64,000 nt of DNA from Nitrospira sp. GTDB taxonomy: Bacteria; Nitrospirota; Nitrospiria; Nitrospirales; Nitrospiraceae. Numbering within the stretch: the stretch's first letter is position 1; every line of letters begins with the position of its first letter. The stretch covers positions 2,713,001-2,777,000 of the forward strand of contig CP054184.1 of assembly GCA_015709715.1 (NCBI GenBank), written 5' to 3'. Position numbers and translations under genes: made by a program. The notes under the pieces are model-generated. The model was not told where the DNA came from. It saw nothing but the letters and a program-made list of their open reading frames with translations, and made no database searches. Shown here one piece after another: positions 1-23,100 of the stretch.

Positions 1-1353
1 CAGCGGTTGTTCGGGCGGACTCTGCCGGCGGATCTGATGGGCAAGTCACCCTACGATCTGTTGCATCAATCCTGCCATGACTCCGTGCGAGCACGGCTCC
101 GGCACCTGCTTGAAACGGGCAGCACGTTTCCCGAGGAGGAGGCGCAGATCGTCCGTTGCGATGGGACCGTCGTGGACGTCGGGCTCAGCGCGTCGTACTT
201 CAGGGATGAGGAGGGCGGCGGGATTTTGCTGCTGTTGCGCGACATTACCGAGCGCAAACTGGCCGAGCAGCGGGTGCGGGAAAGCGAAGAGCGCCTGCAA
301 AGCCTACTCGATGCGATGGAGGATGTCGTCTGGTCCTCAGCGTTGGACCTTTCCGCCATCTATTACATCAGTCCGTCGGCGGCGCAAATCTATGGCCGCC
401 CGGCGGAAGATTTCATCCGGCAGCCTGGTCTATGGACGGAGCTGATTCACGCGGAGGACCGCCCGTCGATCGAGCGGGCTCTGCAGGACCTCCGGACGAC
501 CGGAGAATTCGATGTGGAATATCGGGTTGGCTTGCTCAACGGAGAAACCCGCTGGGTGCATGATCGGCGGCGCATTATCAAGGACGAGGCGGGGCGGCCG
601 CTGCGGATCGACGGGATCGCCACCGACATCACGGAACGGAAGCATTTGCAGGCGCAGTTGCGGCGCACCGAGCGTGTGGCGGAATTGGGAACGGTGGCGT
701 CCGGCATGGCCCATGAGATCGGGACGCCGATGAATGTGATCCTGGGGCGAGCCGAATATCTCATGGAGCGCACGAAAGAAGAATCGGTCAAGAAGGGTCT
801 GCAGACCATCGTGAGTCAGGTGGAACGGATTACGAGAGTGATGAGTCAGCTCCTGGCCTTTGCCCGGCGCCGCCCGGTCGAACATCGGGCTCTGGATCTG
901 CGCCAGACGATCGAAGACAACTTGGAGATTTTTCAAGAGCGGCTGGCGCATAACGACATCACCGCGGAAACCGAGTTCGCGGACGACTGCCCGTTGGTGC
1001 ATGCGGACGGCGATCAGATGAGCCAGGTCTTGATCAATCTCGTGATGAACGCCATCCATGCCATGCCTACCGGCGGCCGATTACGTGTGGCCCTGGCTCC
1101 GGATCGTGGGGTGGTGAAGTTGACCGTGGCTGATACCGGACATGGCATGCCGAGGGACATCATCGCCAAGATCTTCGACCCGTTCTTTACCACCAAGGAG
1201 TTCGGCAAGGGGACCGGGCTTGGGTTGACGGTGGTCAAGGGCATCATTGAGGAGCATGGTGGAACCATTCAGGTTGAGAGCGAGCCGGACCAGGGGACCA
1301 GGTTCACGATCTGCCTCCCTCTCCATGCGGACAAGGGGGCCGTCACCTCGTAA
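1..1353 (+). CDS. PAS-PAS sensor histidine kinase (5' end outside the window)
   Basis: The frame is open from base 1, so the gene begins upstream of the window. Counting from the TTG at 7, the visible part holds the end of one PAS/PAC module (about residues 1-85), a second PAS/PAC module (about 88-215, ending in a DITERK motif), a HisKA dimerisation helix with the phospho-acceptor H236 in [10 protein letters not shown], and a HATPase_c domain with the N box ([11 protein letters not shown]), G1 (DTGHGMP) and G2 (GKGTGLGL). No membrane segment is visible, so the sensed signal is unknown and could lie in the missing part. It is followed by a receiver-only regulator and a sigma-54 activator. I infer a shared signalling chain, but the kinase ends 217 bases before the next gene and that gene has its own promoter. 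Confidence 0.93.
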
Positions 1354-1513: not shown

Positions 1514-1528
1514 TGGCACATGCCTTGC
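1514..1528 (+). promoter_or_regulatory. sigma-54 (-24/-12) promoter for the response-regulator gene
   Basis: TGGCAC-ATGCC-TTGC matches the sigma-54 consensus exactly, with GG and GC ten bases apart. Transcription would start near 1540, giving a leader of about 30 bases before the ATG at 1571. This rules out the upstream in-frame start at 1520, which lies inside the promoter. The rest of the 217-base gap after the kinase gene holds no gene. Confidence 0.8.
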
Positions 1529-1570: not shown

Positions 1571-1975
1571 ATGGAGCAGGGGAGGCCAGCCGTCCTACTG
1601 GTCGTGGAAGATGACAAGGATATGCGTAGCCTGCTCTGCGACGAGTTGTGGGGGGAGGGATACCAACTCAGGGAGGCTGCCACCGGGGATGAAGGGTTGG
1701 CGGCAGTCATGCGAGCCGCGCCGGATCTGATCGTCACCGACCTCAAGATGCCTGCCGGCGGCTTTGACTACGTGCATCGGCTGAGGGTGTGCGCCCCGAA
1801 TTGCCCCATTATTGTCATGTCGGCCTTTGGGGATGCGCGGACCAGGCAGGAGGCGTTGAGCCATGGCGCGACCGCCTATTTCGACAAGCCGCTCCGGCTT
1901 TCCGAACTGAAGGTGACGGTGAAACAATTGCTCAAAAACATGGAGGGATCGCAGGGGAGCCGCCTCCCCCATTGA
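1571..1975 (+). CDS. single-domain response regulator (receiver only)
   Basis: A 134-residue protein made of one REC domain: acidic pocket VVEDD at about 12-15, phospho-acceptor D57 in [10 protein letters not shown], switch residues in PIIVMSAF, and the conserved Lys in FDKPL. There is no output domain, so it either relays phosphate or acts by protein contact. The start was chosen because GAGG lies about seven bases upstream and the sigma-54 promoter at 1514-1528 excludes the longer form. Flanked by the PAS kinase and a sigma-54 activator that has no receiver domain of its own. This REC could therefore be the detached input for that activator; this is inference. Confidence 0.88.
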
Positions 1976-2102: not shown

Positions 2103-3497
2103 ATGGCCGGATCATCATCACAAATTCCCGCAGCTCCTCCCTTTTCCGATCCTATTCTTGCCGCTCGACTCGAAGCTCTGAAACAGCTGGCGGATGGTCT
2201 GACCGATCGTGTCGCCGTCATGGATCGAGACCTCAATGTCGTGTATGCCAACGAACAGGCATGGGGCGAGGGTGGAAGCCCCATCGCCAAGCCGGCCAAG
2301 TGCTATGAGGCCTTCGTTCAACTGGAAGATCCCTGCGGCATCTGTCCGGCCACGACGGTGTTTGAGACTCGAGAGGTGCGTACCATTTCCTGCGCCAGTT
2401 CCGGCGATGGGACGGCTTGCGGGATGCATCAGGCGTTTCCGCTGATGTCGGCCTCCGGGGAAGTGGGGTCCGTGTTGGTGCTCTTCCATAAGCGGCCTGA
2501 CAAGGAGTCCCTCTCGGCCCGCGCGATCCAGTCCTCTGGTCGGGCGCGGCCTGAGCGAACGGATGGGCGTCTTGGCGAGATCGTCGGAGCCAGCCCGGCC
2601 ATGAATCAATTGTTCGACATGATCCGCCTGGTGGCAGACAGCGTGGCGACAGTGTTGATCCATGGTGAAAGCGGGACCGGCAAGGAGTTGGTGGCGCGGA
2701 CGATCCATCAGACGAGTTACCGGCGAGACAAACCATTTGTCGTGGTGGATTGTGGAGCGCTTCCTGAAACGCTGCTGGAAAGCGAGCTGTTCGGTCACGT
2801 CAAAGGCGCGTTTACGGGCGCTGCCACCTCGAAGCCGGGCCTCTTCGAAGAGGCGGATGGGGGCACGGTGTTCTTGGACGAGATCGCCGATACCTCACCG
2901 ACCTTTCAGGCCAAACTCCTTCGGGTGTTGCAGGAAGGCGAGATCAAGCGCGTCGGGGGCACGCAACCGATCAAGATCGATGTGCGCGTCATCTCGGCGA
3001 CCAATAAGGATCTGACCGATCTGGTCCGGGCCAAGGCCTTTCGGCAAGACCTCTATTATCGGCTGGCCGTTCTTCCGGTTCATTTGCCGCCGTTACGAGA
3101 ACGGAGAGAGGACATTCCGCTCTTGGTGTCCAAGTTCGTCATGGACTCTTGCCAGAGACACCGCCAGCCCCAGCGTTCGGTCGGGGAGGAGGTGATGCGG
3201 GCCTTGACGGCCGCGCCCTGGCCGGGGAATGTCCGGGAACTGCAGCACTACATCGAACGTGCGGTCGTGACGACCACCCATGGCGAACTCACCTGTGCGG
3301 ACCTGGTGGCCATGGGAGCGTCGATGGAGAATACGGATTTTCGGACTGCGGTGCGGGACGCCACTCGCCAGGCCGAACGGGTGCGGATTCTCCAGGCGCT
3401 TCAGCAGGTATCCGGTAACCGAGTGAAGGCGGCTCGCTTGCTCAAGATCAGCCGTGCCGGCCTTTATAACAAACTGCGCGAATTAGAGATCGAGTAG
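2103..3497 (+). CDS. sigma-54-dependent transcriptional activator with cysteine-bearing PAS-like N-terminus
   Basis: A 464-residue enhancer-binding protein. Residues 25-125 look PAS-like and carry five cysteines (C67, C78, C81, C97, C106), including a CGIC pair. The AAA+ domain has Walker A GESGTGKE (from 188), the sigma-54 contact loop GAFTGA (235-240) and Walker [11 protein letters not shown] Fis-type helix-turn-helix ends the protein ([19 protein letters not shown]). No receiver domain is present, so control probably comes through the N-terminal domain. Start chosen at 2103 because AGGAG sits seven bases upstream. It lies directly upstream of a sigma-54-promoted multicopper oxidase operon and is the obvious candidate regulator. 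Many PAS domains of this type carry similar cysteines, so metal or redox sensing is only a possibility. Confidence 0.93.
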
Positions 3498-3604: not shown

Positions 3605-3624
3605 CTGTCCAAGTAGCTGGACAG
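3605..3624. promoter_or_regulatory. candidate upstream activator site 1 (CTGTCCA-N6-TGGACAG)
   Basis: A perfect inverted repeat with seven-base arms and six-base spacer, centred about 172 bases before the -24 element at 3787. Dyad symmetry and distance fit a dimeric Fis-type HTH of a sigma-54 activator. Its left ten bases, CTGTCCAAGT, recur exactly at 14484-14493 before the SQR gene. Confidence 0.65.
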
Positions 3625-3644
3625 TGTAACTCATTGTAATTACA
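3625..3644. promoter_or_regulatory. adjacent inverted repeat TGTAA-N10-TTACA
   Basis: Starts immediately after site 1 and has five-base arms. It could be a binding site for a second regulator or simply AT-rich DNA that helps bending. No second copy was seen. Confidence 0.3.
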
Positions 3645-3670
3645 GCACCATATTTTTGACCCCTATGGGA

Positions 3671-3690
3671 CTGTCTAAGTGCATGGAAAT
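3671..3690. promoter_or_regulatory. candidate upstream activator site 2 (degenerate copy)
   Basis: CTGTCTAAGT followed by GCATGGAAAT matches site 1 at 14 of 20 positions, including nine of the first ten. It lies 66 bases downstream of site 1, on nearly the same helical face (about 6.3 turns), and about 107 bases before the -24 element. Confidence 0.5.
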
Positions 3691-3785
3691 CAGCCGTCGA
3701 AGTAGCCTCGTCCCTAGATCCCTATGCATAGTGCAACCAGCGGATTACGCAGGAGAAAATGAAAAGTTTTTCATGAGGGACAGAA

Positions 3786-3801
3786 AGGCACATGTATTGC
3801 C
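3786..3801 (+). promoter_or_regulatory. sigma-54 promoter for the multicopper oxidase operon
   Basis: GGCAC-ATGTA-TTGC matches the -24/-12 consensus except that A replaces the leading T. GG (3787-3788) and GC (3799-3800) are ten bases apart. The start site would fall near 3811-3813, leaving a leader of about 226 bases. The region between 3498 and 4038 has no credible gene: it holds the activator sites, this promoter and a structured leader. Confidence 0.72.
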
Positions 3802-3896
3802 ATTAGGTGGGACGCTGGTGAAGGTGCGGGTGATTAGGACCGGCCTCCGAATGACCTGCTCCCTCGATCTCGAGGAGAGCCTTCACCAGCCCTAAT
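3802..3896 (+). promoter_or_regulatory. structured 5' leader of the multicopper oxidase mRNA
   Basis: GCTGGTGAAGG (3814-3824) pairs perfectly with CCTTCACCAGC (3880-3890). ATTAGG/CCTAAT (3802-3807/3891-3896) extend the pairing in the DNA, and CCTCGA-TC-TCGAGG (3862-3875) forms an inner hairpin. With the predicted start at 3811-3813, the 11-bp stem would sit at the very 5' end of the transcript. I do not recognise it as a known riboswitch. It may protect the mRNA or act as a regulatory element. Confidence 0.5.
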
Positions 3897-3966
3897 TCTC
3901 TTTGGAGCGTTTCGTGGAGGGGACTAGGGGAGGCCGGAGCAGCCGGGGTCCTACCTGACGGAGGCC

Positions 3967-3987
3967 GGTCACACGACCACGTTTTTT
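3967..3987 (+). terminator. weak hairpin followed by T6 in the leader
   Basis: GGTC-ACAC-GACC (3967-3978) is followed after three bases by six T residues (3982-3987). The stem is only four base pairs, so it would be a poor terminator alone. Its place between promoter and oxidase makes an attenuator conceivable. Confidence 0.25.
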
Positions 3988-3993
3988 AACCAC

Positions 3994-4013
3994 TCCCGCG
4001 GAAGGGCGCGGGA
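3994..4013 (+). promoter_or_regulatory. hairpin just upstream of the oxidase ribosome-binding site
   Basis: TCCCGCG-GAAGGG-CGCGGGA is a perfect seven-base stem ending eight bases before the purine-rich AGGAGGGAGG (4021-4030) that precedes the ATG at 4039. It could affect ribosome access or mRNA stability. Confidence 0.4.
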
Positions 4014-4038
4014 ATTCACAAGGAGGGAGGCCGAAATT

Positions 4039-7000
4039 ATGAGGTCTTCATTGCATGGGCCAAAACGCAAACGCTGGCGTCGCGATGCGATGCTGCGTCT
4101 GCAGGCGGCGCTGCTGTCGGGCAGTTTGCTCGCGGCGCCGTGGGTGTTTGCGGCCGGACCAGGAGATCAGTCGCATAGCGGACATGCGACGCAGGTCGCC
4201 ATGCCCGGCTGGACCCAGACCCTGAAGGGTCAAACGGTGGTGGAAAACGCCATCGAGGGTCGTGCGGGAAGTGTGGAGCAGTCGGAAATGCAGCATCACC
4301 GACTGATGCAGCGCCTTGAAGACCAGGCCATTAAGGATGGGCAGGCGCAGGCGACATCCGGTGCCTTCAACACGATGTCGACCATGCACCAGTACATGGG
4401 CCAAGACGGGAGCAGCTTCCTGTTGGCGTCCGACTCGGGTAAGGGGGAGCCGGTCTTGACCAGCGGCGGGAAATGTCCGGCGGGTGTGCCGGTCAAGAAC
4501 TACGACGTGACGATGATGAACATCGAAATCACGTTGAATCGCTGGTTGGACTACTATCCCGGCTACATGTATGCCTTGACCCAGGATGTGGAGAAGGCCC
4601 GCGCCGAGGAAGCCAAGAACAAGGCGGCCCGTGAGAAAGATGGATACGATCCGGGCGCGGTGAGCACGGGATTGCAAGGCGATGTGATCCAGCCCTTGGT
4701 GCTCCGTGCAAACCAGGGCGATTGCGTCAAGATGACCCTCCGTAACCAGATGGAAGCCGAGGATGGCAGCTTGTTCATCCAGGCCTCCAGCATGGTGATC
4801 AGCGGTACGGGGAAACCTGCCACCACGACCAACCCTGAATCCATCGTAGCGCCGGGCAAGTCGCAGGAATTCGAATGGTACATCCATCCGAACATGCAGG
4901 AAGGTGTGCGGCAGTTCCATTCCTACAGCCATGACCGTGAGCTGACCGTGTTGGGTCTGTTCGGTGCGTTTATCGTCGAGCCGAAGGGATCGAAGTACAT
5001 GGAAGCGCTCGGCACCGGTCCCCAGAAGGAGACCGCGAGCGGCTGGCAGGTGAACATCGACAATGGGTCGGGGCCGGACTTCCGCGAGTTCGTGCTGTTC
5101 TATCACGAAATCGGCGATGAAGCCTTCCGTCCGTTGAACAAGAAGGGTGACTTCTTGCCGCAGCGCGATCCGCTGACCGACGCCTATCGTCCGGGCGGCC
5201 GTGCGTTGAACTATCGCAGCGAACCGTTCGGCATCGATCAGATGCACTTGCAGCACGAGTATTTCGGCTTCGAGGACGAGTCGATGGGCTACAGCTCCTA
5301 TACCTTCGGAGATGTGCCGACCACGATTCCTCGCGGCTATCTCGGCGATCCGGTCAAGTGGCGGATCGTGCACGGTGGGTCCGAAGTGTTTCACTCCCAC
5401 CATCCTCACAGCGGCACCATCCGCTGGCAGCGGAGTCCGGGCACGGAGCCCAACAACCTCTGGGCAGCGGGTCAGGATGGGCCGGTCAAGTATCCGGTCG
5501 TCCGGACCAAGTCCGACCGAGTCGACGTGGAAGTCATCGGTCCGTCCGAGGCCTTGGACCTTGAGCCGGAGTGCGGCGGCGGTGGCTGTCAGCACTTGGC
5601 CGGCGAATTCCTCTTCCATTGCCACGTGGCACACCACTATGTGGCGGGCATGTGGGGATACGGCCGCTTCTACAACACGCTCCAAGTCGGGGCCGCGCAT
5701 ACGGATACCATGCCGGACCTGCAGGAGTTGCCCGACCGTCAGGGTCGGATGAAGCTGGGCGTCAGCTCGGACAAGTTGATCGGCACCACGGTCGACTGGT
5801 TCGGGAAGACGTTCAAGATCGTCGACAAGGGTCAGAAGACCAACTGGAAATCCGATCCTGTGATCGTGAACATCAAGGATTGGGTCGAAATGTTCGTGCC
5901 GGCTCAGGGCCAACCGGGCCACACGAACGATGAAAAGGGCCAGATCTTGGCCTACGATTCCACGGTGTGGGACTGGAAGTGGGACGGCAACATCGCACGC
6001 GGTGAGCGTGAGAGCACCGCCCTGAATCCAAAGTATCCTGCCGCGGCGAAGTGGGATGACAGCACCAGACCCGCCATTCTGTTTGACCCGACCACGGGCA
6101 AAATGGCCTGGCCGCTGTTCAAGCCGCACTTCGGCAAGCGTGTGCCGTTCTCAGCCAACCACAGCGGTGCGCCATGGTTGGAGCCGATCCACCAGGATGA
6201 AAACGGTGATCGGACCTCCGAGCCGGCGAAGCCGGGCGAGCAGGGCCGTTGGAGCCTCTGCCCCGACAACGCCAACCGGAAGCATTACAACCTGCACTTC
6301 ATCCGGTTGCCCATTACCCTGGCCAAGAAGCAGGGCAAGGAGCCACCGATCGTCGACAAGGACGGCTTGATCTACGTGCTCCATGAAGAGGAGCAGTTGA
6401 CCAGGGCCAACGACGATCTGAAGTTGCCAGCGGTCATTCGCGCCAACGTGTATGACTGCGTGGACATTCTGTTGACCAGCGAGTGGGACGACGACGATTA
6501 CACCAACTTCCAGTCGTCCAAGATCAACATCCATCCGCACTTCTTCCAGTTCGACACTGGAAACTCGGATGGCGTGATTTCAGGCTTCGAGTACGAGATG
6601 TCCGTCCGGCCGTTCACCATGTGGGGCAAGAAAACCAAGCACGGTCTGCCGGCTCCGATGGTGGCGAAATTGAAGGAGGGCATCAAGGCGGGCGCCTCGT
6701 CCATCAAGATCCAGATGGCGCCGGGTGCCACGCCGTTCCATGTCAACACCGAACTGATGGTCGGCATGGATTGTTTGGAGAAGGGGCACGACACGACGGC
6801 TTCCTTGCCTCGCGACAAGAGCTGTCAGGAAGTGGCCCGTATCAAGGAGATCAAGGGTGATGTGGTCACGTTCTTCAAGCCGCTGAAGCATGCGCATCCG
6901 GCCAACGACCTCGTGTCGCCGGAATTCGTGCGTTATCGGTGGTGGGTGGACGTGGATATGGGGACCGTGTTCTGGCATGACCACGCGTTCGGCGCGACGA

Positions 7001-8979
7001 CCTGGCCGCATGGCGGGTTCGGCGTGACGATCGTGGAGCCGTACGGGTCCACCTATCATGATCCGAAGAACGGCAAGCTGGTGTACAGCGGGCCGGTCGC
7101 GGACATCCACAGCAATGAGCCGATCGGTGCCGGTGTGAGCGGCAGCTTCCGTGAGTTGATGGTCTCCATCCACGACACGGTGCCCCATACCGTCAACGTC
7201 ATCGAAGCCGGCAATCCCCCGGGACAGCCGATCGAAGTGGCGTTGGAAGCAGGCAAGACGGTGTCCTTCCAGATGCCGGACAAGATCCTGAATGCGCCGA
7301 ACAAGTACATCAACGGCGGCACGCACACGACCGGCAGCGGGTTTAACTTCCGCGCGGAGCCGTTTGCACAACGCCTGTCGAACAATCCTGATACCTCGAA
7401 GCTGTTCAGCAGCGCCATCCACGGCGACCCGGACACGCCTCTCCTGAGAGCGTATGTGGGCGACACGATGGTGTTCCGTCTGTTGCACCAGCTGATGAAC
7501 GAATCCCATGTGTGGACGATTTCCGGCCACACGTTCCTGACCGAACGCTATGCGGCGGATGCCAATCGGAAGAACTCCATCCACGTGGGGATCGCCGAGC
7601 GGTATGACCTCGTCAGCAAGGCGGGCGGATTCCAGGGGATGCCGGGCGACTACATTCACTTCAACGGACGAAGCTCGCACTTCGCCGAAGGTGGATGGGG
7701 CATCGTCCGCGTGCTGGATAAGCAAGTGGAGGATCTGAAGCCGTTGCCGAAGGGGACCAACCCGATCGGCATTCCTCCTGTGCCGAGTTCCGTGTGTCCG
7801 TCCGATGCGCCGGTGAAGAACTTCAACGTGGTGGCGTTGGATCGCCCGATGAAGCTCAACCCGAAGGCGCCGGATGCCATCGAGGTGGACTTCGAGCGGA
7901 AGATCGAAATGACCATGCCGGAAGGCAAGATCTTCGCGCTGGAGGAAGAAGCCGCGACGGTCGCAGGCAACGTGATGCCGAACCCGCTCACGCTGCGCGC
8001 GAACCTGGGCGACTGCCTCAAGGTGCATCTGAAGAACAAGATGAAGGAGAGCCGGGCCTCGTTCTTTGCGCCGGGCTTGGCCTTCGATCCGCGCGACAGC
8101 CAGGGGTTGAACGTCGGCAACAACGGCGGCGACCAGACCGTGGCTCCGGGCGAGAGCCGGACCTATACCTTCTACGCGCATCCTTCCAACAAGGAGACCA
8201 CGTCGTTGGTGTGGGACGGTGGCAACATCGTCGTCAATCCGCGCAACGGGTTGTACGGCGCGATCATCATCGGCCCGAAGGGATCGCAGTATCGTGATCC
8301 TGTGACCGGCGCCGATGTGTCTCAGAAGAACAGCTGGCGGGCGGATGTCATCGTCGACGCCAGCCTACCGGAGAACGCCGGCAAGCGGAACTACCGTGAC
8401 GTGGCCCTCTTCTTCCAAGATGAGGACAACATCATCGGCACCGCGTTCATGCCGTATGTGCAGAATGTAGCCGGTCTGACGTCGGTCAACTACCGCGCGG
8501 AACCGTATAAGTTCCGCGAGGAAGAAGGCTGCTCGCTGGGCAAGATCTTCCAGCCGTGTAAGGTGGACAAGCCTGAGGATCCTGTGACGCCGTTGATCGA
8601 GGCGCACGCGGGAGACCCAGTGCGTATCCACGTGATCGGCGCGAACAGCGAACAGAACGGCATGTTCGGAGTCGAGGGCCACGAGTGGCCGATCGAACCC
8701 TATATGCCGGGTGCCGACATGATCAGTGTGGTGGAGTACGCCGGGTCAGAGACCCTGGATGTCTTCCTCCGGGGTGGTGCGGGTGGTCCGTATCGCCAGG
8801 TGGGAGACTTCGTGTGGTCCAACCAGCGGTTGCCCTACACGCAATCCGGACAGTGGGGCTATCTGCGCGTGTTGCCGGCTGGCGACCAGCGGATTCAGCC
8901 TCTCGGGGCGGCCGGATCAGGCGCACGTCAAGCGGAAGTGCAGCCTGATGCACAGGCGATCCCGACTGCCATGAAGTAA
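4039..8979 (+). CDS. giant multidomain multicopper oxidase (1646 residues), exported
   Basis: A Sec-type signal (basic n-region, then LQAALLSGSLLAAPWVFA) is followed by repeated cupredoxin domains. The first half holds HSHHPH (H452-H457) and a complete type-1/type-3 motif HCHVAHHYVAGM with H527, C528, H529, H533 and M538 at canonical spacings. Further HxH motifs are HPH (832-834) and HDH in TVFWHDHAF (980-982). Later domains keep the fold but have a degenerate end motif without the cysteine (YIHFNGRSSHFAEGGWG). Most multicopper oxidases are 450-700 residues. This size recalls the large bacterial oxidases linked to Mn(II) oxidation (MofA of Leptothrix, and McoA/MnxG of Pseudomonas). In Pseudomonas putida GB-1 Mn oxidation depends on a sigma-54 regulator, MnxR. 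The substrate here is not established; copper or another metal or organic reductant is possible. First gene of the operon. Confidence 0.9.
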   Translation: MRSSLHGPKRKRWRRDAMLRLQAALLSGSLLAAPWVFAAGPGDQSHSGHATQVAMPGWTQTLKGQTVVENAIEGRAGSVEQSEMQHHRLMQRLEDQAIKDGQAQATSGAFNTMSTMHQYMGQDGSSFLLASDSGKGEPVLTSGGKCPAGVPVKNYDVTMMNIEITLNRWLDYYPGYMYALTQDVEKARAEEAKNKAAREKDGYDPGAVSTGLQGDVIQPLVLRANQGDCVKMTLRNQMEAEDGSLFIQASSMVISGTGKPATTTNPESIVAPGKSQEFEWYIHPNMQEGVRQFHSYSHDRELTVLGLFGAFIVEPKGSKYMEALGTGPQKETASGWQVNIDNGSGPDFREFVLFYHEIGDEAFRPLNKKGDFLPQRDPLTDAYRPGGRALNYRSEPFGIDQMHLQHEYFGFEDESMGYSSYTFGDVPTTIPRGYLGDPVKWRIVHGGSEVFHSHHPHSGTIRWQRSPGTEPNNLWAAGQDGPVKYPVVRTKSDRVDVEVIGPSEALDLEPECGGGGCQHLAGEFLFHCHVAHHYVAGMWGYGRFYNTLQVGAAHTDTMPDLQELPDRQGRMKLGVSSDKLIGTTVDWFGKTFKIVDKGQKTNWKSDPVIVNIKDWVEMFVPAQGQPGHTNDEKGQILAYDSTVWDWKWDGNIARGERESTALNPKYPAAAKWDDSTRPAILFDPTTGKMAWPLFKPHFGKRVPFSANHSGAPWLEPIHQDENGDRTSEPAKPGEQGRWSLCPDNANRKHYNLHFIRLPITLAKKQGKEPPIVDKDGLIYVLHEEEQLTRANDDLKLPAVIRANVYDCVDILLTSEWDDDDYTNFQSSKINIHPHFFQFDTGNSDGVISGFEYEMSVRPFTMWGKKTKHGLPAPMVAKLKEGIKAGASSIKIQMAPGATPFHVNTELMVGMDCLEKGHDTTASLPRDKSCQEVARIKEIKGDVVTFFKPLKHAHPANDLVSPEFVRYRWWVDVDMGTVFWHDHAFGATTWPHGGFGVTIVEPYGSTYHDPKNGKLVYSGPVADIHSNEPIGAGVSGSFRELMVSIHDTVPHTVNVIEAGNPPGQPIEVALEAGKTVSFQMPDKILNAPNKYINGGTHTTGSGFNFRAEPFAQRLSNNPDTSKLFSSAIHGDPDTPLLRAYVGDTMVFRLLHQLMNESHVWTISGHTFLTERYAADANRKNSIHVGIAERYDLVSKAGGFQGMPGDYIHFNGRSSHFAEGGWGIVRVLDKQVEDLKPLPKGTNPIGIPPVPSSVCPSDAPVKNFNVVALDRPMKLNPKAPDAIEVDFERKIEMTMPEGKIFALEEEAATVAGNVMPNPLTLRANLGDCLKVHLKNKMKESRASFFAPGLAFDPRDSQGLNVGNNGGDQTVAPGESRTYTFYAHPSNKETTSLVWDGGNIVVNPRNGLYGAIIIGPKGSQYRDPVTGADVSQKNSWRADVIVDASLPENAGKRNYRDVALFFQDEDNIIGTAFMPYVQNVAGLTSVNYRAEPYKFREEEGCSLGKIFQPCKVDKPEDPVTPLIEAHAGDPVRIHVIGANSEQNGMFGVEGHEWPIEPYMPGADMISVVEYAGSETLDVFLRGGAGGPYRQVGDFVWSNQRLPYTQSGQWGYLRVLPAGDQRIQPLGAAGSGARQAEVQPDAQAIPTAMK

Positions 8980-9004: not shown

Positions 9005-9041
9005 GATGGGGGGGCTGCCTGTATCATGCAGCTCCCCCATC
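9005..9041 (+). terminator. long intercistronic hairpin after the oxidase gene
   Basis: A 14-base stem (GATGGGGGGGCTGC with GCAGCTCCCCCATC, one G-T pair) closes a nine-base loop CTGTATCAT. There is no T run, so it may act as an RNA stability element or partial terminator between the oxidase and the downstream genes. Confidence 0.5.
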
Positions 9042-9068
9042 TGCGTTTCAGGCCCGGGTAGGAAAGGC

Positions 9069-9121
9069 GATTGGCTCCCTGTATCATTGATGGAGGGTGT
9101 CAATGATTTCATGGACCAATC
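9069..9121 (+). promoter_or_regulatory. nested inverted repeats upstream of the cupredoxin gene
   Basis: Outer arms GATTGG/CCAATC enclose symmetrical eight-base internal loops and inner arms ATCATTGA/TCAATGAT around a nine-base loop. It lies just before the AGGAGG at 9126-9131. The decamer CCTGTATCAT occurs both here (9078-9087) and in the preceding hairpin (9018-9027), exactly 60 bases apart. Confidence 0.4.
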
Positions 9122-9137
9122 ACAGAGGAGGCCGGAC

Positions 9138-10130
9138 GTGACATTGCGTACCATAATTGAAAGGACATCGTGCAAGAAAGAGAAGAGGGCTCGCATGGGA
9201 GGAAGGGGGCTGCTGATGGCAGCCATGGCTTGGGCGTGCTTCGCTGGTGTGCCCGCCTCGGCCTATGAAGAAGTGCCGGTGACGGACGGTGGAACCCTCA
9301 CAGGGGCCATCACCCTGGAGGGAAAGGTCCCTAAACCCAAGGGATACAACCTCGTGACGTTGCCCGATCAATTCTATTGCGGGCGGATTTCCGATGGGCA
9401 GGGCTGGCGCATCTTGCAGCCGTTCCAGGTCGGGCCGGCCGGAGAGTTTCGTGACGTGGTCGTCTATCTGGAGGGCATTGAAAAGGGGAAGCCCTTCGAG
9501 GAAGGGACCGTTCCGCAGATTGAAGCGAAAGACTGTCTCTTCCTGCCGTTTACGACAGTCGTGCGGGACGATCAATCGGTGACGGTGGTGAACATGGATC
9601 CCGTCATGCACGACATTCAAGCCTATGAAACCTCGCAGCTGGGTCCGCGGGTCTTGTTCAACGTGCCGCTGCCGATGAATCCTCAGCATCCGCGCAACTT
9701 CAAAGATCGGAGCGATGCGGCGCTGTACCACAAGCACATGGCCGGCCCGCCGATGAAGCAGTTGGTCAACCTCAGCAAGGGCCGCCGGATCTTCGTCATG
9801 CAATGCGGGTTCCACGCCTATATGGAGAGCTGGGGCGTGGCCGTCACCAATCCCTACTTTGCCAAGACCGATGAGCAGGGCCGGTTTACCATGACCAACG
9901 TGCCCCCCGGCACCTACAAGTTGGTCGTGTGGCATCCCTACGTCCGCACCGCGATCGAACAGACCGTGACGATCGGGGCGAAGGGGACGGTGGAAGCCAA
10001 TATCGTCGTGCAGGCTCCGACGGGACGGTTGTACGCGAACGAGGTGATCGACCATCCTTACGTTCGCTACAACATCCCCGAAGAAACGCAGAAAGAAATC
10101 GATCCGATGGTGCAGAAACAGGAACACTGA
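9138..10130 (+). CDS. exported cupredoxin-like protein with carboxypeptidase-regulatory-like domain
   Basis: A 330-residue protein with a long n-region and signal sequence ending in VPASA. The middle has the histidine in NMDPVMHDIQAY and a cluster MQCGFHAYMESW, which supplies the Cys, His and Met expected of a type-1 copper site. The C-terminal part (FTMTNVPPGTYKLVVWHP) is the small Ig-like carboxypeptidase-regulatory fold. GTG at 9138 was chosen because AGGAGG is six bases upstream; ATG at 9195 is an alternative. Downstream of the multicopper oxidase, so it may deliver copper or electrons to it. I do not know a named family member. Confidence 0.72.
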   Translation: MTLRTIIERTSCKKEKRARMGGRGLLMAAMAWACFAGVPASAYEEVPVTDGGTLTGAITLEGKVPKPKGYNLVTLPDQFYCGRISDGQGWRILQPFQVGPAGEFRDVVVYLEGIEKGKPFEEGTVPQIEAKDCLFLPFTTVVRDDQSVTVVNMDPVMHDIQAYETSQLGPRVLFNVPLPMNPQHPRNFKDRSDAALYHKHMAGPPMKQLVNLSKGRRIFVMQCGFHAYMESWGVAVTNPYFAKTDEQGRFTMTNVPPGTYKLVVWHPYVRTAIEQTVTIGAKGTVEANIVVQAPTGRLYANEVIDHPYVRYNIPEETQKEIDPMVQKQEH

Positions 10131-10138
10131 AGAGGACC

Positions 10139-11071
10139 ATGGCAACACTCAGTCGGGTTTCGCTGCCGGCCGTCATGGTCGGTCTGGCGACAGGGCTGCT
10201 TCTGGGTTTGGTGACGACGAGCCATGCCGACCATGAATTGCCCAAGCCGCCGCCGCTCTGGTCTCCGCTCGATGAGGCCGAGCGGTTGGCGTTGATCGAC
10301 GTGCCAGGCGGCATGGTCCAGGTGCCAGCCGGCCCATTCTTGATGGGCAGCGATCCGCGGGTCGATCGGGCGGCAGGGCCGCAGGAGCAGCCCCAGCATC
10401 AGGTGTACGTCGACGCCTTCCAGATCGATCGGTTCGAAGTCAGCAATGTGAACTATTTGCGGTATGTCCTGGCCACCGGAGCGCCATGGCCGCATTACTG
10501 GCGGGAACAGCCGTTTCCGGAAAAGATCGCGAAACATCCGGTGATCGGTGTCTCATGGCGGGAGGCTGATGCCTATTGCCGGTGGCGGGGAGCCCGTCTC
10601 CCGACCGAAGCCGAATGGGAGAAGGCCGCGCGCGGCGAGGACGGGCGCATGTTTCCCTGGGGCAATGAGCCGGCCGGTTGGATCAAGAGCAACATCGCCC
10701 ATCCGGGATCCAAACGGGGGGCGAAGTATCCGCCGCTGGCCAACGTGGACCGGTACCAGAACGGTGTGAGCCCCTATGGGGTGTACCAATTGGCCGGCAA
10801 CGTCAGCGAGTGGGTATCCGATTGGTTCGATCCGGAATATTACCGGCGTGAGGAGAATCGGAACCCCATCGGCCCGACCACGGGACAGGACAAGGTCTTT
10901 CGCGGAGGGTCATGGAATGAGGACCCCGAAGTCGCCCGCTCTGCCGGGCGCAACTCCGGAGGACTCGACCATTGGAGTTATTTGATCGGGTTTCGTTGCG
11001 CAGTGTCGGGCGAGAGCAGCCGTCAACTCTCGGCCGTTGATCCGGACCTTCTGCCGAAGGCCGATCGCTGA
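10139..11071 (+). CDS. exported SUMF1/FGE-fold protein, first copy
   Basis: 310 residues with a signal peptide ending TTSHA, then a full SUMF1 domain: VPAGPFLMGSD, VSWREADAYCRWRG, LPTEAEWEKAARG, GNVSEWVSDWF, FRGGSWNEDP and GFRCAVS. In true formylglycine-generating enzymes two cysteines follow the RGGS motif and bind copper. Here that stretch has none, so sulfatase-activating chemistry is unlikely. A binding or structural role with the neighbouring copper proteins is inferred. AGAGG lies close to the start. It is followed after 33 bases by a paralogue. Confidence 0.88.
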   Translation: MATLSRVSLPAVMVGLATGLLLGLVTTSHADHELPKPPPLWSPLDEAERLALIDVPGGMVQVPAGPFLMGSDPRVDRAAGPQEQPQHQVYVDAFQIDRFEVSNVNYLRYVLATGAPWPHYWREQPFPEKIAKHPVIGVSWREADAYCRWRGARLPTEAEWEKAARGEDGRMFPWGNEPAGWIKSNIAHPGSKRGAKYPPLANVDRYQNGVSPYGVYQLAGNVSEWVSDWFDPEYYRREENRNPIGPTTGQDKVFRGGSWNEDPEVARSAGRNSGGLDHWSYLIGFRCAVSGESSRQLSAVDPDLLPKADR

Positions 11072-11104
11072 GCGGAGACGGCAGGACTAACAAGGAGGCC
11101 GAAG

Positions 11105-12076
11105 ATGAAGAAACAGCGAGTGGGCAGGTTTCGGAAGGGCCTGCGAGTGACGCAGGCCCTGGTGATCGGAGCAGCATTATTCGCGCTGATTCCGGTCGCA
11201 CGGGCGCTGGATACGCAGGACATCATCGTCGAGTGGACGCCGGAGGGGAAGGCCCTCGCCGAGCAGCGCGCGGCCACGATGAAACCCAAGGAAGGCACGG
11301 TGTTGGTACCGGCGGGCGAATTCATCATGGGCAGCGACAAAAAGACGGATCGCTTGGCCTATCGGTCGGAATTGCCGCAACGCCGTGTGTACCTGGACGC
11401 CTACGAAATCGACCAATACGAAGTCACGAACCTCCACTATCTGAAGTACATCCTCGCGACCGGCAAATTGCCGCAGTTGGATTGGCGGTATGACGGGGGG
11501 AATTTCCAGGAGTCGATGGCCAACCATCCGATCATGCACGTCTCCTGGTACGACGCCGATAGTTACTGTCGCTGGGCCGGCAAGCGGTTGCCGACGGAAG
11601 CGGAATGGGAAAAGGCCGCCCGCGGCGACGATGGGCGGTTGAACCCCTGGGGCAACCAATCGGCCGGTTTGAGCCGTGCCAATTTCGGTCGAACCGGCCT
11701 GTCCGGTCCGGTCCGGGACCGTCCCGAACGGCTGCTGATGTATCCGCCGCTCATTTCAGTGGATAAGTATGACAACGCCGTGAGTCCCTATGGGTTGTTT
11801 CAAACGATGGGCAATGTGGCGGAGTGGGTGTCGGATTGGTACGACTTGGATTATTACAAGTCCGCTCCGGATCGAAACCCGAAAGGGCCGGAAACCGGCA
11901 GCCAGAAGGCGTTTCGGGGCGGCGGCTGGATGGACAGCACCACCACCATGCGGGTGGCCATGCGGAACGGGACCGATCCGAACACCAAGATCAATTGGAT
12001 GGGGTTCCGTTGCGCGCGTGATGTGAAAGAGGGCACGGCGAGCACCGTGTCCTACACGGGGCCGACGGGTCAATAG
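11105..12076 (+). CDS. exported SUMF1/FGE-fold protein, second copy
   Basis: 323 residues; signal peptide MKKQRVGRFRKG...FALIPVARA. It shares the SUMF1 landmarks with its neighbour: VPAGEFIMGSD, VSWYDADSYCRWAG, LPTEAEWEKAARG, GNVAEWVSDWYD, FRGGGWMDS, GFRCARD. It likewise lacks the catalytic cysteine pair after RGGG. AAGGAGG precedes the ATG. A tandem pair of non-catalytic SUMF1 proteins inside a copper-oxidase operon suggests a complex rather than sulfatase maturation. The two copies are clearly diverged, so the duplication is not recent. Confidence 0.88.
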   Translation: MKKQRVGRFRKGLRVTQALVIGAALFALIPVARALDTQDIIVEWTPEGKALAEQRAATMKPKEGTVLVPAGEFIMGSDKKTDRLAYRSELPQRRVYLDAYEIDQYEVTNLHYLKYILATGKLPQLDWRYDGGNFQESMANHPIMHVSWYDADSYCRWAGKRLPTEAEWEKAARGDDGRLNPWGNQSAGLSRANFGRTGLSGPVRDRPERLLMYPPLISVDKYDNAVSPYGLFQTMGNVAEWVSDWYDLDYYKSAPDRNPKGPETGSQKAFRGGGWMDSTTTMRVAMRNGTDPNTKINWMGFRCARDVKEGTASTVSYTGPTGQ

Positions 12077-13193: not shown

Positions 13194-13670
13194 GTGGTGT
13201 TTGTGCTGATTTGGATTCACCTGCTGTCTGCGGTGGTGTGGATCGGTGGGATGGTGTTTCTATCGGTCGTGTTGGTGCCTGTGCTCCGGCGAGGCGGCCA
13301 ATTCGCCCAGCACGCGACGCTGTTTCGCACGGTCGCCTACCGGTTTCGCGGGCTGGTCTGGGGGGCGATGGGGGTGTTGATTGTGACCGGCTTGGTGATC
13401 GCGTCAGGGCGGTCGATCGATGTCACGGCGCCGCACTTATGGCCCGCGGTGTTTGCGGCGAAATTGGGTGTCGTGGCGTTGTTGTTCGCCCTCACGCTGC
13501 TGCATGACCTTGTCGTGGGTCCGCGAGTGCGACGGGTGCTCGGCGTGAAAGAGGTCGAGCGTACAGCAGGAGACCGGCTCTTGCTCCGGTACTCCGTCTT
13601 GGTACCGCGCCTCTCGTTGCTGTTGTCGCTGGTGGTGCTGCTGCTGGCCGTGATCCTCGCCCGCACGTAG
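13194..13670 (+). CDS. CopD-like four-helix membrane protein
   Basis: 158 residues with four hydrophobic helices: WIHLLSAVVWIGGMVFL, GLVWGAMGVLIVTGLVIA, PAVFAAKLGVVALLFALTLLHDLVV and LSLLLSLVVLLLAVIL. The first-helix motif IHLLSAVVWIGGMVF and the internal His resemble the CopD/DUF4149 membrane family, some of which are linked to copper handling. GTG at 13194 or 13197 is the start; AAGGAG fits 13197 slightly better. It lies after the hairpin that ends the copper-oxidase operon, so it may be transcribed separately. Confidence 0.65.
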   Translation: MVFVLIWIHLLSAVVWIGGMVFLSVVLVPVLRRGGQFAQHATLFRTVAYRFRGLVWGAMGVLIVTGLVIASGRSIDVTAPHLWPAVFAAKLGVVALLFALTLLHDLVVGPRVRRVLGVKEVERTAGDRLLLRYSVLVPRLSLLLSLVVLLLAVILART

Positions 13671-18855: not shown

Positions 18856-19044
18856 ATGAGACTCAATGATTGGCTTCGGTTGATCGCAGGGGTGTTCGTG
18901 TTGGCCTCAGTCGTGTTGGGAGCGACGGTGCATCCCTATTACCATTATTTCGCGGCATTCGTTGCGGCGAATCTGATCCAGTCGTCGTTTACCGGCTGGT
19001 GTCCGATGATGGCCCTGTTACGGAGGCTTGGTGTCCAGGAGTAA
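18856..19044 (+). CDS. DUF2892-type small membrane protein
   Basis: 62 residues forming two short helices (LIAGVFVLASVVLGATV and YFAAFVAANLIQSSF) and ending with the GWCPMMALLRRLG motif typical of DUF2892/YgaP-like membrane anchors. AAGGAGG precedes ATG 18856. Its end overlaps the start of the membrane fusion protein gene by 14 bases, so translation is probably coupled. The conserved Cys in GWCP is reminiscent of rhodanese-associated membrane tails. Confidence 0.78.
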   Translation: MRLNDWLRLIAGVFVLASVVLGATVHPYYHYFAAFVAANLIQSSFTGWCPMMALLRRLGVQE

Positions 19045-20122
19045 CGAGAGGAGCGGGAGGGCCTGGTGGGCGGCGCTGGCGCTGCTGACCCTGGCAGGTT
19101 GTGGGCAAGGGGAGGATCCGTCCCGGTCCGGGGCGGTGGCGCCGACCCTAGCGGTTCGACCCACGATCCACGCCGCGGTGGTCGAGGTGAAGGTCGGGCA
19201 AGTGCCCGTCACGGTGGAAGTGACGGGACAGGTCACGGCCCTGTACCAAGCGACCCTGGCGAGCCGCATTCAAGGCACCATCGATGAGCTCTTGGTGCGG
19301 GAAGGCAGTCCCGTGCGCAAGGGGCAGACGCTGGTCAGGTTGGACAATCGTGATCTACGGGCAGAACTGGCCCGCATGACCGCGGAACTCGACAATGCCG
19401 ATGCGCAACGAAAACGCATGGAAGACCTGTATCAGAAGGACGCTGTCTCCAAGCAGGAATGGGAGAATGCCACGCGCGGCTTCCGCGTGGCGGAGGCAGG
19501 CCGAAAGGCGGTGCTGGCTCAATTGAGTTACACCGTCGTGAAAGCTCCCTTCGATGGCGTGATCACGGACAAGAAAGTCGAAGTGGGTGAATTGGCATCG
19601 CCTGGGCAACCGTTGCTGCGGATGGAAGACCCGACGCGGCTTCGGTTGGAAGCCACGGTCGCCGAGAGCGATGTGGGGTTGGTCACGGTCGGCGCCGCCG
19701 TTCCGGTCGTCATCGATGCGCTGGGTTCCGAGCCGCTCCAAGGTACGGTGTCACAGATCCTGCCGGCCGGAGACCCGCAGACCCATACCTTTATGATGAA
19801 GGTGGAGTTGCCGAAGCAGCCGAGGGTGAAGTCCGGGATGTTCGGTCGGCTGCGGCTCGAACGGGGCGTGACCCAGACCATGGCGGTCCCGAAATCGGCT
19901 CTGATTGAGCGGGGCGAGCTGGCCGGGCTGTATGTCGTCGAGCAGGATCACGTCGCGCGCTTGCGGTGGGTCAAGTTGGGGCGTCCGTTGGAGCAGGGAG
20001 TCGAAGTCCTCTCGGGACTCAATGCCGGCGAACGGATCCTGGCCGATGCGACGAGGGGAGAGGACGGTGCCTTGGTGCAAGACGTGACGGCGGTGGCGCT
20101 GCCCACCGGAAAAACGGAATGA
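19031..20122 (+). CDS. RND efflux periplasmic adaptor (membrane fusion lipoprotein)
   Basis: 363 residues; lipoprotein signal with lipobox LAGC at about 20-23. A lipoyl-like half motif (VTALYQATLASRIQGTIDELLVREGSPVRKGQTLVRLD is split by an alpha-hairpin, about 100-160), followed by beta-barrel and membrane-proximal domains. GTG at 19031 was chosen because GGAGG lies four bases upstream. It links the inner-membrane pump encoded 21 bases downstream to an outer-membrane channel, which is not encoded next to it. Confidence 0.9.
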   Translation: MSRSNERSGRAWWAALALLTLAGCGQGEDPSRSGAVAPTLAVRPTIHAAVVEVKVGQVPVTVEVTGQVTALYQATLASRIQGTIDELLVREGSPVRKGQTLVRLDNRDLRAELARMTAELDNADAQRKRMEDLYQKDAVSKQEWENATRGFRVAEAGRKAVLAQLSYTVVKAPFDGVITDKKVEVGELASPGQPLLRMEDPTRLRLEATVAESDVGLVTVGAAVPVVIDALGSEPLQGTVSQILPAGDPQTHTFMMKVELPKQPRVKSGMFGRLRLERGVTQTMAVPKSALIERGELAGLYVVEQDHVARLRWVKLGRPLEQGVEVLSGLNAGERILADATRGEDGALVQDVTAVALPTGKTE

Positions 20123-20143
20123 GCTGCCCATGACGGTTGCCCC

Positions 20144-23100
20144 ATGACGACTCCCCGCCTCGGACCAAGCGGCCGCCTGGCTGCCCTCTTCGTCGGCAGC
20201 AAACTGACCCCCCTCATCATCATCGCCGTGCTGCTTCTGGGCCTCCTCGCCATCCTGCTGACGCCGCGCGAGGAGGAGCCGCAGATCGTCGTTCCCATGG
20301 CGGATGTCTGGTTGCCGTTTCCCGGCGCCTCCGCGAAGGTGGTCGAGGAGCAACTCACCAAACCGATCGAACGCAAGCTCTCCGAGATCAAGACCGTCGA
20401 ATACGTCTACTCCATCTCCCGCCCCGGCGGAGCCTTGATCATCGTGCGTTTCTACGTGGGCGAGCCGATGGAGCAAAGCCTGGTGGACCTCTACGACAAG
20501 TTGATGTCGAACCAGGACCTATTGCCGCCGGGCGCCCTGCCGTTTCAGGTGAAACCGCGCGACGTGAACGATGTGCCGATCGTGACGCTGACCCTGTCGA
20601 GCGCCCGCTACGACGATTTCCAGCTGCGACAGCTGGCGGATCAGGTGCTGGAAGATGCGAAGAAGGTTCCGGGCACTGCGGGAGGGTTCATCGTCGGCGG
20701 ACGCGGTCGCGAGTTGCGGGTCCAGATCGATCCCACGCGGCTCAAGGCCTACGGCCTCACGCCCTTGCGAGTGGCAGGTGTCATCCAGGGCGAGAATCTC
20801 GCCCTACCCACGGGACGCTTCGAAAGCCGGAATAAAAGTTTCCTGGTCGAAACCGGGCGGTTCATTCGATCCAAGGAGGATCTCGAAACCTTGGTCGTCG
20901 GGGTGAACGACCAGCGCCCCGTGTATCTGCGGCAGGTCGCCGCCGTGACCGATGGGCCGACCGAGGCGACGAGTTATGTATGGCATGGCGAACGAGCCGG
21001 TGCTGTGGCCTCGACCGCGACGGATGGCAGAGCCACGGCCGCGCAGGAGGTTCCCGCCGTGACGGTGGCCCTTGCCAAGCAAGCCGGTACCAATGCCGTG
21101 ACCGTCGCCCACGGCGTGATTCAAAAGGTCGAGGAGTTGAAAGGCACCGTGATTCCCGCCGACGTGCGAGTCACGGTCACGCGCGATTACGGAGAGACTG
21201 CCGACGAGAAGGCCAACGAACTGCTCTGGCACCTGTTGATCGCTGTGGTGGCGGTGGTGGTGTTTCTTGGCTTTACGCTGGGCCTGCGCCCGGCCTTCGT
21301 GGTGTCGATTGCGATCCCGCTGACCCTCGCGATGACGTTGTTCGTGTCCATGCTCATCGGCTACAGCATCAACCGTGTCACCCTGTTCGCGCTGATCTTT
21401 TCCATTGGCATCCTGGTGGACGACGCGATCGTCGTGGTGGAGAACACCTATCGGCACCTGACGCTCAGGCGGCACCCACATCGAGAAGCCTCGTTGGTCG
21501 CGGTCGATGAGGTCGGCAATCCGACCATCCTCGCCACCCTGACCGTGATTGCGGCCCTGTTGCCAATGGCCTTCGTCTCTGGGTTGATGGGCCCCTACAT
21601 GCGCCCCATCCCCGTGAATGCCTCCATCGCCATGTTCGTGTCCCTGCTCGTCGCGTTCGTCGTCATTCCCTGGTTCTGCCAGACTTGCTACCGTCCCGGC
21701 GTGACGATGCACGGCGTCGAGGGGGAGGCCTTTGAAGGCGGCCGGACCTACCGGTTGTATCAACGGCTGCTGGCGCCCGTGTTGTCCCATCCGCTGCTGG
21801 CCTATCTGGTGTTGGGCGTGATCGCCCTGTTCCTGGTGGGGTCGGTGTTCCTGTTCTACACGCGCGACGTGGTGGTCAAGATGTTGCCGTTCGACAATAA
21901 AAGCGAATTGCAGCTCGTGATCGATCTGCCCGAAGGGACCACGTTGGAGGAGACGGCCCGCGTGACGAAACGCGTGGCGGAGTATGTGCGGACGATTCCC
22001 GAGCTGCGCGATTACCAGGCCTATGTCGGCACGGCCTCGCCGTTCAATTTCAACGGGCTGGTGCGGCATTATTACCTGCGTGACCAGCCCCACGAAGCCG
22101 ACATCCAGATCAACCTCCTGGCCAAGGAGGAGCGGCAGGCGCAAAGTCACGAGATCGCCCAGCGTATTCGTCCCGCCGTGCAACAGATCGGCCGACAGTA
22201 TGGCGCCAATGTGAAGGTGGTTGAAGTGCCGCCCGGGCCGCCGGTGCAGTCGGTGTTGGTGGCGGAGATTTATGGCCCCGAGTACGAACGTCAACAGGCG
22301 ATCGCCCGCGACGTACGCCGACTGTTCGAGCAGACAGCCGGTGTCGTCGATGTGGACGATTACCTCGAAGCGGACCAGGTGAAGTATGTGTTCACCGTCG
22401 ATCGGGCCAAGGCCGCGCTGGCCGGGATTCCGTCGGAGGAAATCGTCAAGACGCTGCGACTGGCGCTCGAGGGCGCCAATGTCGGCCTCGTGCACTTGCC
22501 GAAAGAGAAACGACCGGTGCAGGTGATGTTGCGGCTGCCGATCAGCGAACGCACCGGCCTCGAACATCTCGGAGAACTCTCCTTGCGGAGCGCCGCTGGC
22601 TCGATGCTGCCGCTCTCGGAAGTGATCCGCGTCGAGCAGACGATGTTGGAGAAGGCGATCTACCACAAGAATCTCAAACCGGTCGTCTATGTAGTGGCCG
22701 ATGTCGGCATGGCAGGCCAGGAGAAGGGCGAGAGCCCGGTGTATGGCGTGCTGGGCATCGGTAAGAAACTGGAGCAGTTCACCTTGCCCGAGGGGTACAG
22801 CCTGGCGCAGCACTATGCGGTGCAGCCCTGGTCGGAGCAGCGGTTTGGCATGAAGTGGGACGGCGAGTGGCACATCACCTATGAAACGTTTCGGGACATG
22901 GGATTGGCGTTCGGGGCGGCGCTAGTCCTGATTTATCTCCTGATCGTGGCGCAGTTCCAGTCATTCCTGACGCCGGTCGTGATCATGGCGCCGATTCCGC
23001 TCACCCTCATCGGGATCCTGCCGGGCCATTGGTTGACCGGGTCGTACTTCACCGCCACGTCCATGATCGGGTTCATCGCCTTGGCCGGCATCATCGTGCG

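Follow-up and report, generated by a model that had tools for sequence, protein, structure and literature searches.

In Pseudomonas putida GB-1, promoters of the IHF-sigma-54 type have been predicted for mnxG and mcoA, and expression is thought to require the dedicated sensors MnxS1/S2 together with the regulator MnxR (PMC11930936, main text). The main text of that paper contains neither 'leader' nor 'UTR', and riboswitch occurs in it only in the title of a reference. A periplasmic multicopper protein noted in Nitrospina gracilis, highly conserved in Ca. Nitrospira defluvii and similar to the Mn oxidase of Bacillus SG-1 is described in the relevant passage of the Nitrospina gracilis paper, where a role in defence against reactive oxygen was suggested for it (PMC3578206). 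In addition, the part of PMC9040806 that deals with such enzymes attributes two novel multicopper oxidases to Ca. Manganitrophaceae. The open-licence literature yielded no tested role for the giant MnxG-like oxidases of the Nitrospira family, and no report of either the promoter or the RNA described below.

The window analysed here, a stretch of 64,000 nucleotides, corresponds to positions 2713001-2777000 of a Nitrospira genome of 4,156,062 bp that forms one contig. A whole-genome search located a single rpoN gene and, counting the neighbour of the oxidase gene, 30 sigma-54 activator-like matches. The features of the locus are collected in Table 1. With a probability of about 0.6, we favour the reading that the giant oxidase encoded at this locus is under the joint control of a sigma-54 cascade and of a new leader RNA that acts on translation and is perhaps a riboswitch.

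Table 1. Features of the oxidase locus; coordinates are those of the window unless prefixed.
Feature	Coordinates	Strand	Basis and remarks
NtrC-like receiver-AAA-HTH activator gene	L226:5234-6613	same direction	Pfam; just upstream of the window, followed by the kinase gene
902-aa multi-PAS histidine kinase gene	L226:6646-9354	same direction	Pfam; runs into window 1..1353
3' part of the 902-aa kinase gene	1..1353	+	ORF translation and Pfam; start lies outside the window
Second -24/-12 element TGGCACATGCCTTGC	1514..1528	+	perfect core; 5' of the response-regulator and activator genes
Single-domain response regulator	1571..1975	+	Pfam Response_reg 7e-22
Sigma-54 activator, AAA+ with GAFTGA, Fis-type HTH	2103..3497	+	Pfam Sigma54_activat 7.9e-72, HTH_8 4e-10
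Dyad 1, CTGTCCA-AGTAGC-TGGACAG	3605..3624	+	probable activator site; perfect; unique in the genome; 84/91 orthologue upstream regions
Dyad 2, CTGTCTA-AGTGCA-TGGAAAT	3671..3690	+	degenerate, 3 mismatches; 66 bases past dyad 1
-24/-12 sigma-54 element AGGCACATGTATTGC	3786..3800	+	GG-N10-GC kept in 89/91
Leader RNA, 77 nt, three-way junction	3814..3890	+	core with <=4 mismatches in 91/91; covariation; model R1
P1 helix, 11 bp	3814-3824/3880-3890	+	covariation; inverted repeats, arms 55 nt apart
P2 helix	3828-3831/3854-3857	+	covariation; core in its loop
Core loop GGACCGGCCUCC	3837-3848	+	nearly invariant
P3 helix	between P2 and P1 3' arm	+	often a GCAA-type loop
First downstream GGAGGCC copy	3929..3935	+	complement of the RNA loop
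12-nt perfect complement of GACCGGCCTCCG (3838-3849)	3959..3970	+	inverted repeat I3; kept mainly in the window's clade
Hairpin P4 (CCCGCG/CGCGGG)	3994..4013	+	before the ribosome site; clade-variable arms look complementary, by eye
Shine-Dalgarno GGAGGCC	4026..4032	+	complement of the RNA loop; 6 nt 5' of ATG
Giant multicopper oxidase, 1646 aa, MnxG-like	4039..8979	+	MnxG homology and four copper motifs
Carboxypeptidase-regulatory-like domain gene	9006..10130	+	Pfam; usually kept beside the oxidase
Two FGE-sulfatase-domain genes (FGE1, FGE2)	9929..12076	+	Pfam; often kept 3' of the oxidase

The oxidase and its sigma-54 control region

Multicopper oxidases are marked by the ligand motifs HxxHxH, HCHxxxHxxxxM, HxH and HxH. 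In the window's protein these motifs lie at residues 452, 527, 832 and 980 in the order L3-L4-L1-L2, and they are kept in 68 of 68 orthologue translations save for one gap (at 832) and one Gly (at 980). The protein is homologous to Bacillus MnxG (PDB 9bxa, E=3.2e-81) over several stretches, and the region of the L4 copper motif is aligned. It scored 104.9 bits with the NCBIfam MnxG equivalog model NF041487, so far under the cut-off of 3100 that by this test it is not MnxG itself; these comparisons indicate a distant MnxG homologue. A match to the oxidase was found in 173 of 175 family genomes; identity is about 78-97% for orthologues and about 64-73% for a paralogue. The named records with the orthologue belong to Nitrospira or to related Nitrospirota, and the Ca. 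Nitrospira defluvii chromosome FP929003.1 is among them. Enzymes of the FGE type can bind copper, which makes a copper link of the FGE-sulfatase-domain genes 3' of the oxidase conceivable. The neighbourhood also holds a gene for a CopD/DUF4149-like membrane protein (13194-13670), which falls below the Pfam CopD cut-off, and an RND efflux pair (HlyD-type and AcrB-type) within 19028-23464.

The initial annotation of the window placed a dyad, a degenerate second dyad and a -24/-12 element in that order between a sigma-54 activator gene and the oxidase gene, and this arrangement is present as described (activator 2103-3497, dyad 1, dyad 2, -24/-12, oxidase 4039-8979). In the element at 3786-3800 an A replaces the consensus T at the first position, and transcription is predicted to start at 3811-3813. 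In the 64-kb window the dyad pattern, with up to three mismatches allowed, gave 7 matches against 3.1 expected, a number reached by 2 of 100 shuffles, and the copy at 3605, the only perfect one, is the sole part that stands out in the window by itself. The generic -24/-12 consensus, with up to two mismatches, gave 11 matches against 10.9 expected, and the 3786 site was absent from these 11. As the consensus is about as frequent as chance would have it and the list does not hold the site, the 3786 element is unremarkable by itself. A chance match of the promoter parts, which these window statistics left open, was ruled out by their conservation in relatives.

For this comparison, a set of 137 orthologue loci was narrowed to 116 and finally to 92 distinct upstream regions, of which 91 were kept. 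The one dropped, L043, had looked like an orthologue lacking the RNA described below; this was rejected, as its anchor lay on another match, and on the same contig in G067 the covariance model places the RNA start 402 nt 5' of the oxidase. Upstream regions of paralogues (29) formed the comparison set. Dyad 1 and the -24/-12 element occurred at the window's spacing in 82 of the 92 orthologue regions, compared with 12 of 1840 dinucleotide-preserving shuffles, and most of the 82 matches also held a dyad 2-like copy, mostly 65-67 nt past dyad 1. The GG-N10-GC pattern was found 33-41 nt 5' of the RNA core in 89 of 91 regions (with TTGC in 85 of the 89), set at this conserved place in a TGGCAC-N5-TTGC-like context; the two regions without an intact pattern (L142 and L170) have each lost one G. 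A sigma-54 promoter demands rpoN in the genome and a sigma-54-type activator at the locus, and both are present.

The dyad itself, with up to three mismatches, was kept in 84 of 91 orthologue regions and occurred in 1 of 29 paralogue upstreams, and the palindrome CTGTCYA-N6-TRGACAG, with at most one mismatch, has one place in the entire genome. Moreover, its half-sites often change together, CTGTCCA/TGGACAG in some relatives and CTGTCTA/TAGACAG in others. Since the region is kept in orthologues and the dyad is nearly absent from paralogue upstreams, the comparison establishes a genuine sigma-54 control region that is specific to this oxidase copy. The proposal that the region belongs to the oxidase is borne out by parts and spacing that are kept across many genera and by rpoN, the adjacent activator and the MnxG homology; loss of the dyads from relatives that keep the oxidase had been named beforehand as the finding on which this proposal would fall, and with the dyad kept in 84 of 91 it survives.

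The protein encoded at 2103-3497 has the attributes of a bacterial enhancer-binding protein, namely an AAA+ Sigma54_activat domain, a GAFTGA loop (read from the translation) and an HTH. Its N-terminal part gave no Pfam match, a receiver domain included, and the idea of a proven PAS sensor (PAS-like with CxxC) was dropped for that reason. Four cysteines of this N-terminal domain (Cys67, Cys78, Cys81 and Cys106) are kept in 38 of 38 relatives of at least 55% identity, and would suit a metal or redox sensor. A site of the 1514 type, with up to two mismatches, precedes the response-regulator gene in 46 of 57 loci, some of which are the same genome from two collections. The NtrC-like activator and the multi-PAS kinase encoded further upstream are possibly the top of a cascade. 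Together, the 1514 promoter in front of the activator gene and the NtrC-like activator/kinase pair suggest that the locus forms a two-tier sigma-54 cascade.

The activator gene adjoins the oxidase gene in most loci, also in another family of the order, and this argues against the dyads at 3605-3690 being bound by one of the other sigma-54 activators of the genome instead of the neighbour. The same can be said of oxidase copies with a more distant activator, which show a different dyad (GGGGC...GCCCC). Binding by another activator is nonetheless credible as a minority view, with 30 activator-like matches in the genome, the neighbour included, and with dyads kept at loci that have no adjacent activator. 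Indeed, in several relatives the activator lies away from the oxidase although the sites are kept, and at L038, L039, L044, L066-L068, L090 and L097, where the promoter and/or the RNA are kept, tblastn of the fetched upstream stretches gave no activator gene. On balance we consider another activator improbable, and the adjacent protein is the presumed ligand of the dyads in what follows.

Leader RNA at the predicted 5' end

When the leaders were aligned, the best-conserved stretch proved to be not the promoter but 3814-3890, directly past the predicted start. A 20-nt core within it, GGACCGGCCTCCGAATGACC, is present in every one of the 91 orthologue leaders when up to four mismatches are allowed (78 match exactly), and in 0 of 29 paralogue upstreams; it lies 35-39 nt past the -12 GC wherever the -24/-12 element is present (89 regions). 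The initial annotation had called the control region at 3605-3801 complete. Its sigma-54 parts stand, and its completeness does not: the leader RNA at 3814-3890 was overlooked, a second sigma-54 promoter lies upstream at 1514, and 3605-3801 is thus half of the control unit.

The predicted fold is a three-way junction (Table 1). In alignment A1, which comprises 57 of the 77 distinct element sequences, 95.1% of cells pair and 14 of 25 pairs have changed on both sides. The covariation score was 0.222, compared with 0.140 for shuffled alignments (reached in 0 of 500) and at most 0.108 for slid partners, and more than one helix covaries. RNAalifold, unaided, returned the same P1 and P2. The P3 helix is weaker (82.3% paired, with 12 G-U and 25 A-C cells), and a slip in alignment register accounts for part of this. 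A shorter form of the window's leader folds only moderately better than its shuffles, with z -2.3 and an equally good fold in 4 of 200.

The P1 arms are inverted repeats, as they would be if 3814-3890 were a palindrome bound by protein as DNA, 3' of the start, and no RNA at all. A DNA site, however, has no cause to favour G-U over A-C, and the P1 cells contain 28 G-U and 0 A-C, which points to an RNA read from the sense strand; moreover, covariation is not limited to a single helix, and 55 nt separate the two P1 arms. A DNA palindrome is the least probable of the alternatives that were weighed. Only marginally better placed is the view that nothing beyond the sigma-54 promoter and its activator sites matters, with the hairpins downstream being incidental. 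The promoter parts are certainly conserved, and sigma-54 activators often control neighbouring genes. Against this very unlikely reading, the RNA core (0 mismatches in 78 of 91) is better kept than the dyads, compensatory change is strong and is accompanied by the G-U bias, and the RNA persists under two different promoter spacings (see below).

A search of the 4227 families of Rfam 15 gave nothing overlapping the element at E values up to 1, and no credible match was obtained at seven further loci that hold it. A known RNA family was discarded as an explanation, Rfam having returned unrelated weak matches only. Judged from its covarying sense-strand fold and the single gene family downstream, the element is a structured cis-regulatory RNA.

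Distribution of the RNA and its tie to oxidase genes

A covariance model, R1, was built for the element and run on several sets of genomes. Of the 175 family genomes, 151 gave a match, and so did 181 of the 235 order genomes, with 27 of 37 genera and three families represented. Across a sample of 395 genomes from the phylum there were 112 with a match, all of them within two families of the same order. Of the 24 R1-negative family genomes, 20 were examined, and none of these 20 had an orthologue of at least 75% identity with a match starting in the first 50 residues.

Outside the main orthologue set, 33 further copies (31 distinct) were picked by hand from the R1 matches; other matches, for example extra ones in G022, G029, G011 and G154, were left out. 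These further copies, which are second copies in family genomes and copies in another family, had no part in building the model. In 30 of the 33, the RNA is followed by an ORF for a giant oxidase that shares about 50-78% identity with the window's and in some cases runs past the fetched stretch; the three exceptions have an oxidase remnant (L205), a fragment (L211) or none (L208). At L205 and L208 the RNA and the activator are present and an intact oxidase is missing, and these are probably decayed second copies. All ten P1 pairs tested among the further copies have changed on both sides, and covariation was 0.446 compared with 0.205 after shuffling, values to be read with the bias toward structure that comes from finding the copies by R1 itself.

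A -24/-12 element starts 28-30 nt 5' of the RNA in 20 of the 33 further copies. The other 13 (L191, L194, L196-L204, L209 and L222) form class 2, and their oxidases are about 50-65% identical to that of the window. Most of them lack a -24/-12 element within 60 nt and were at one point considered free of sigma-54; this was abandoned, as elements of the GGAAC...TTGC type start 60-78 nt 5' of the RNA in 12 of the 13. In many class-2 copies a GGGGC...GCCCC dyad replaces the CTGTCCA dyad. With spacing and dyads differing by class, the RNA accompanies giant oxidases and promoters of the sigma-54 type rather than a particular promoter sequence, and in the genomes searched its link to giant oxidase genes appears near-exclusive.

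The RNA loop, the ribosome-binding site and a model for control

Translational riboswitches and similar leader RNAs have a conserved, structured 5' leader with a loop complementary to the Shine-Dalgarno (SD) sequence. The SD of the oxidase gene, GGAGGCC, is the exact complement of GGCCUCC in the RNA. In 85 of the 91 orthologue leaders it precedes a start codon by 2-9 nt, whereas at other GGAGG-bearing ORFs of the same loci it was found in 34 of 201 (17%), counted in a slightly different window of 4-12 nt before the ATG. Over all oxidase-like ORFs, paralogues included, the figure is 87 of 157, and the exact sequence is missing before the start in many class-2 copies. The loop-SD duplex has a mean energy of -18.9 kcal/mol, compared with -11.1 kcal/mol for shuffled loops.

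Between the element and the start codon, 52 of 85 leaders contain two or three GGAGGCC copies. In the window's clade one extra copy lies within the 12-nt complement at 3959-3970. A pseudoknot-free fold of the window leader pairs the loop with 3959-3970 and the SD with another partner, and did not return the proposed pairing. Since the loop hardly varies, the loop-SD pairing is without support from covariation. The extra GGAGGCC copies and alternative pairings would be the picture expected of a translational switch.

The same conservation and covariation would equally fit an RNA that is real but bound by a protein (a CsrA-type or autogenous translational repressor), or that lends stability to the 5' end of a sigma-54 mRNA, instead of acting as a sensor for a metal or small molecule. 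Invariant loops also occur in protein-binding leaders, and a stabilising role would find some encouragement in class 1, where the element begins at the predicted 5' end (core 35-39 nt past the -12 GC). The class-2 RNA, in contrast, lies 60-78 nt past the start of its promoter element, so an exact 5' end is not required, and the loop-SD complementarity with the additional GGAGGCC copies points to a switch. We regard a protein-bound or stabilising RNA as unlikely, though it is the most serious competitor of joint control by a sigma-54 cascade and a translational leader RNA.

The model of joint control would operate as follows. The activator, encoded next door or, in some relatives, elsewhere, would bind the paired dyads, which lie some 130 and 200 bp 5' of the start, and drive the sigma-54 promoter of the oxidase gene. 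As the activator gene has a putative sigma-54 promoter of its own, placed behind the NtrC-like activator and kinase, transcription would be governed by a two-tier cascade. The mRNA would open with the 77-nt three-way-junction RNA, whose loop GGACCGGCCUCC would pair with the SD GGAGGCC in vivo, and the RNA would keep the ribosome site shut or open by signal, in the manner of translational riboswitches. Candidates for this signal are the metal of the enzyme (copper or manganese) or the redox state. A bolder version, to which we give somewhat less than an even chance, is that 3814-3890 represents a new riboswitch class, so far confined to Nitrospira's order and dedicated to giant MnxG-like oxidases, that senses a copper, manganese or redox signal and uses its GGACCGGCCUCC loop to gate the ribosome site, the transcript itself being made only by the two-tier sigma-54 cascade.

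Overall, the conserved sigma-54 promoter and the conserved leader RNA with its SD-matching loop indicate that the giant oxidase of nitrite-oxidising Nitrospira and their relatives is probably controlled twice. An orthologue kept at about 78-97% identity and given its own two-layer control points to a protein that is important and costly, and this control offers a direct handle on what induces it. The leader RNA, which we find more interesting than the promoter it follows, is a promising candidate for a translational control element of a new class: without a counterpart in Rfam, present in 181 of 235 genomes of a nitrifier order and linked to one copper enzyme, it makes a testable riboswitch candidate, and its ligand, once found, would tell the purpose of the enzyme in Nitrospira.

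Among known systems, Bacillus MnxG (PDB 9bxa; NCBIfam NF041487) resembles the oxidase through the homology given above (E=3.2e-81) and differs in length, with 1227 aa compared with 1646 aa in Nitrospira. The multicopper protein of the Nitrospina gracilis paper may correspond to any of the Nitrospira paralogues, and the passage that describes it mentions neither regulation nor an RNA (PMC3578206). The parallel with P. putida GB-1 drawn in the initial annotation holds at the level of published predictions, as there, too, sigma-54 promoters (PmnxG and PmcoA) are predicted in front of the genes for giant multicopper oxidases that oxidise Mn (PMC11930936, main text). Nitrospira differs from GB-1 in belonging to another phylum, in an activator without a receiver-domain match and in the presence of a leader RNA. 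In comparison with known translational riboswitches, this RNA has no match in Rfam and is tied to the sigma-54-type transcripts of one enzyme family.
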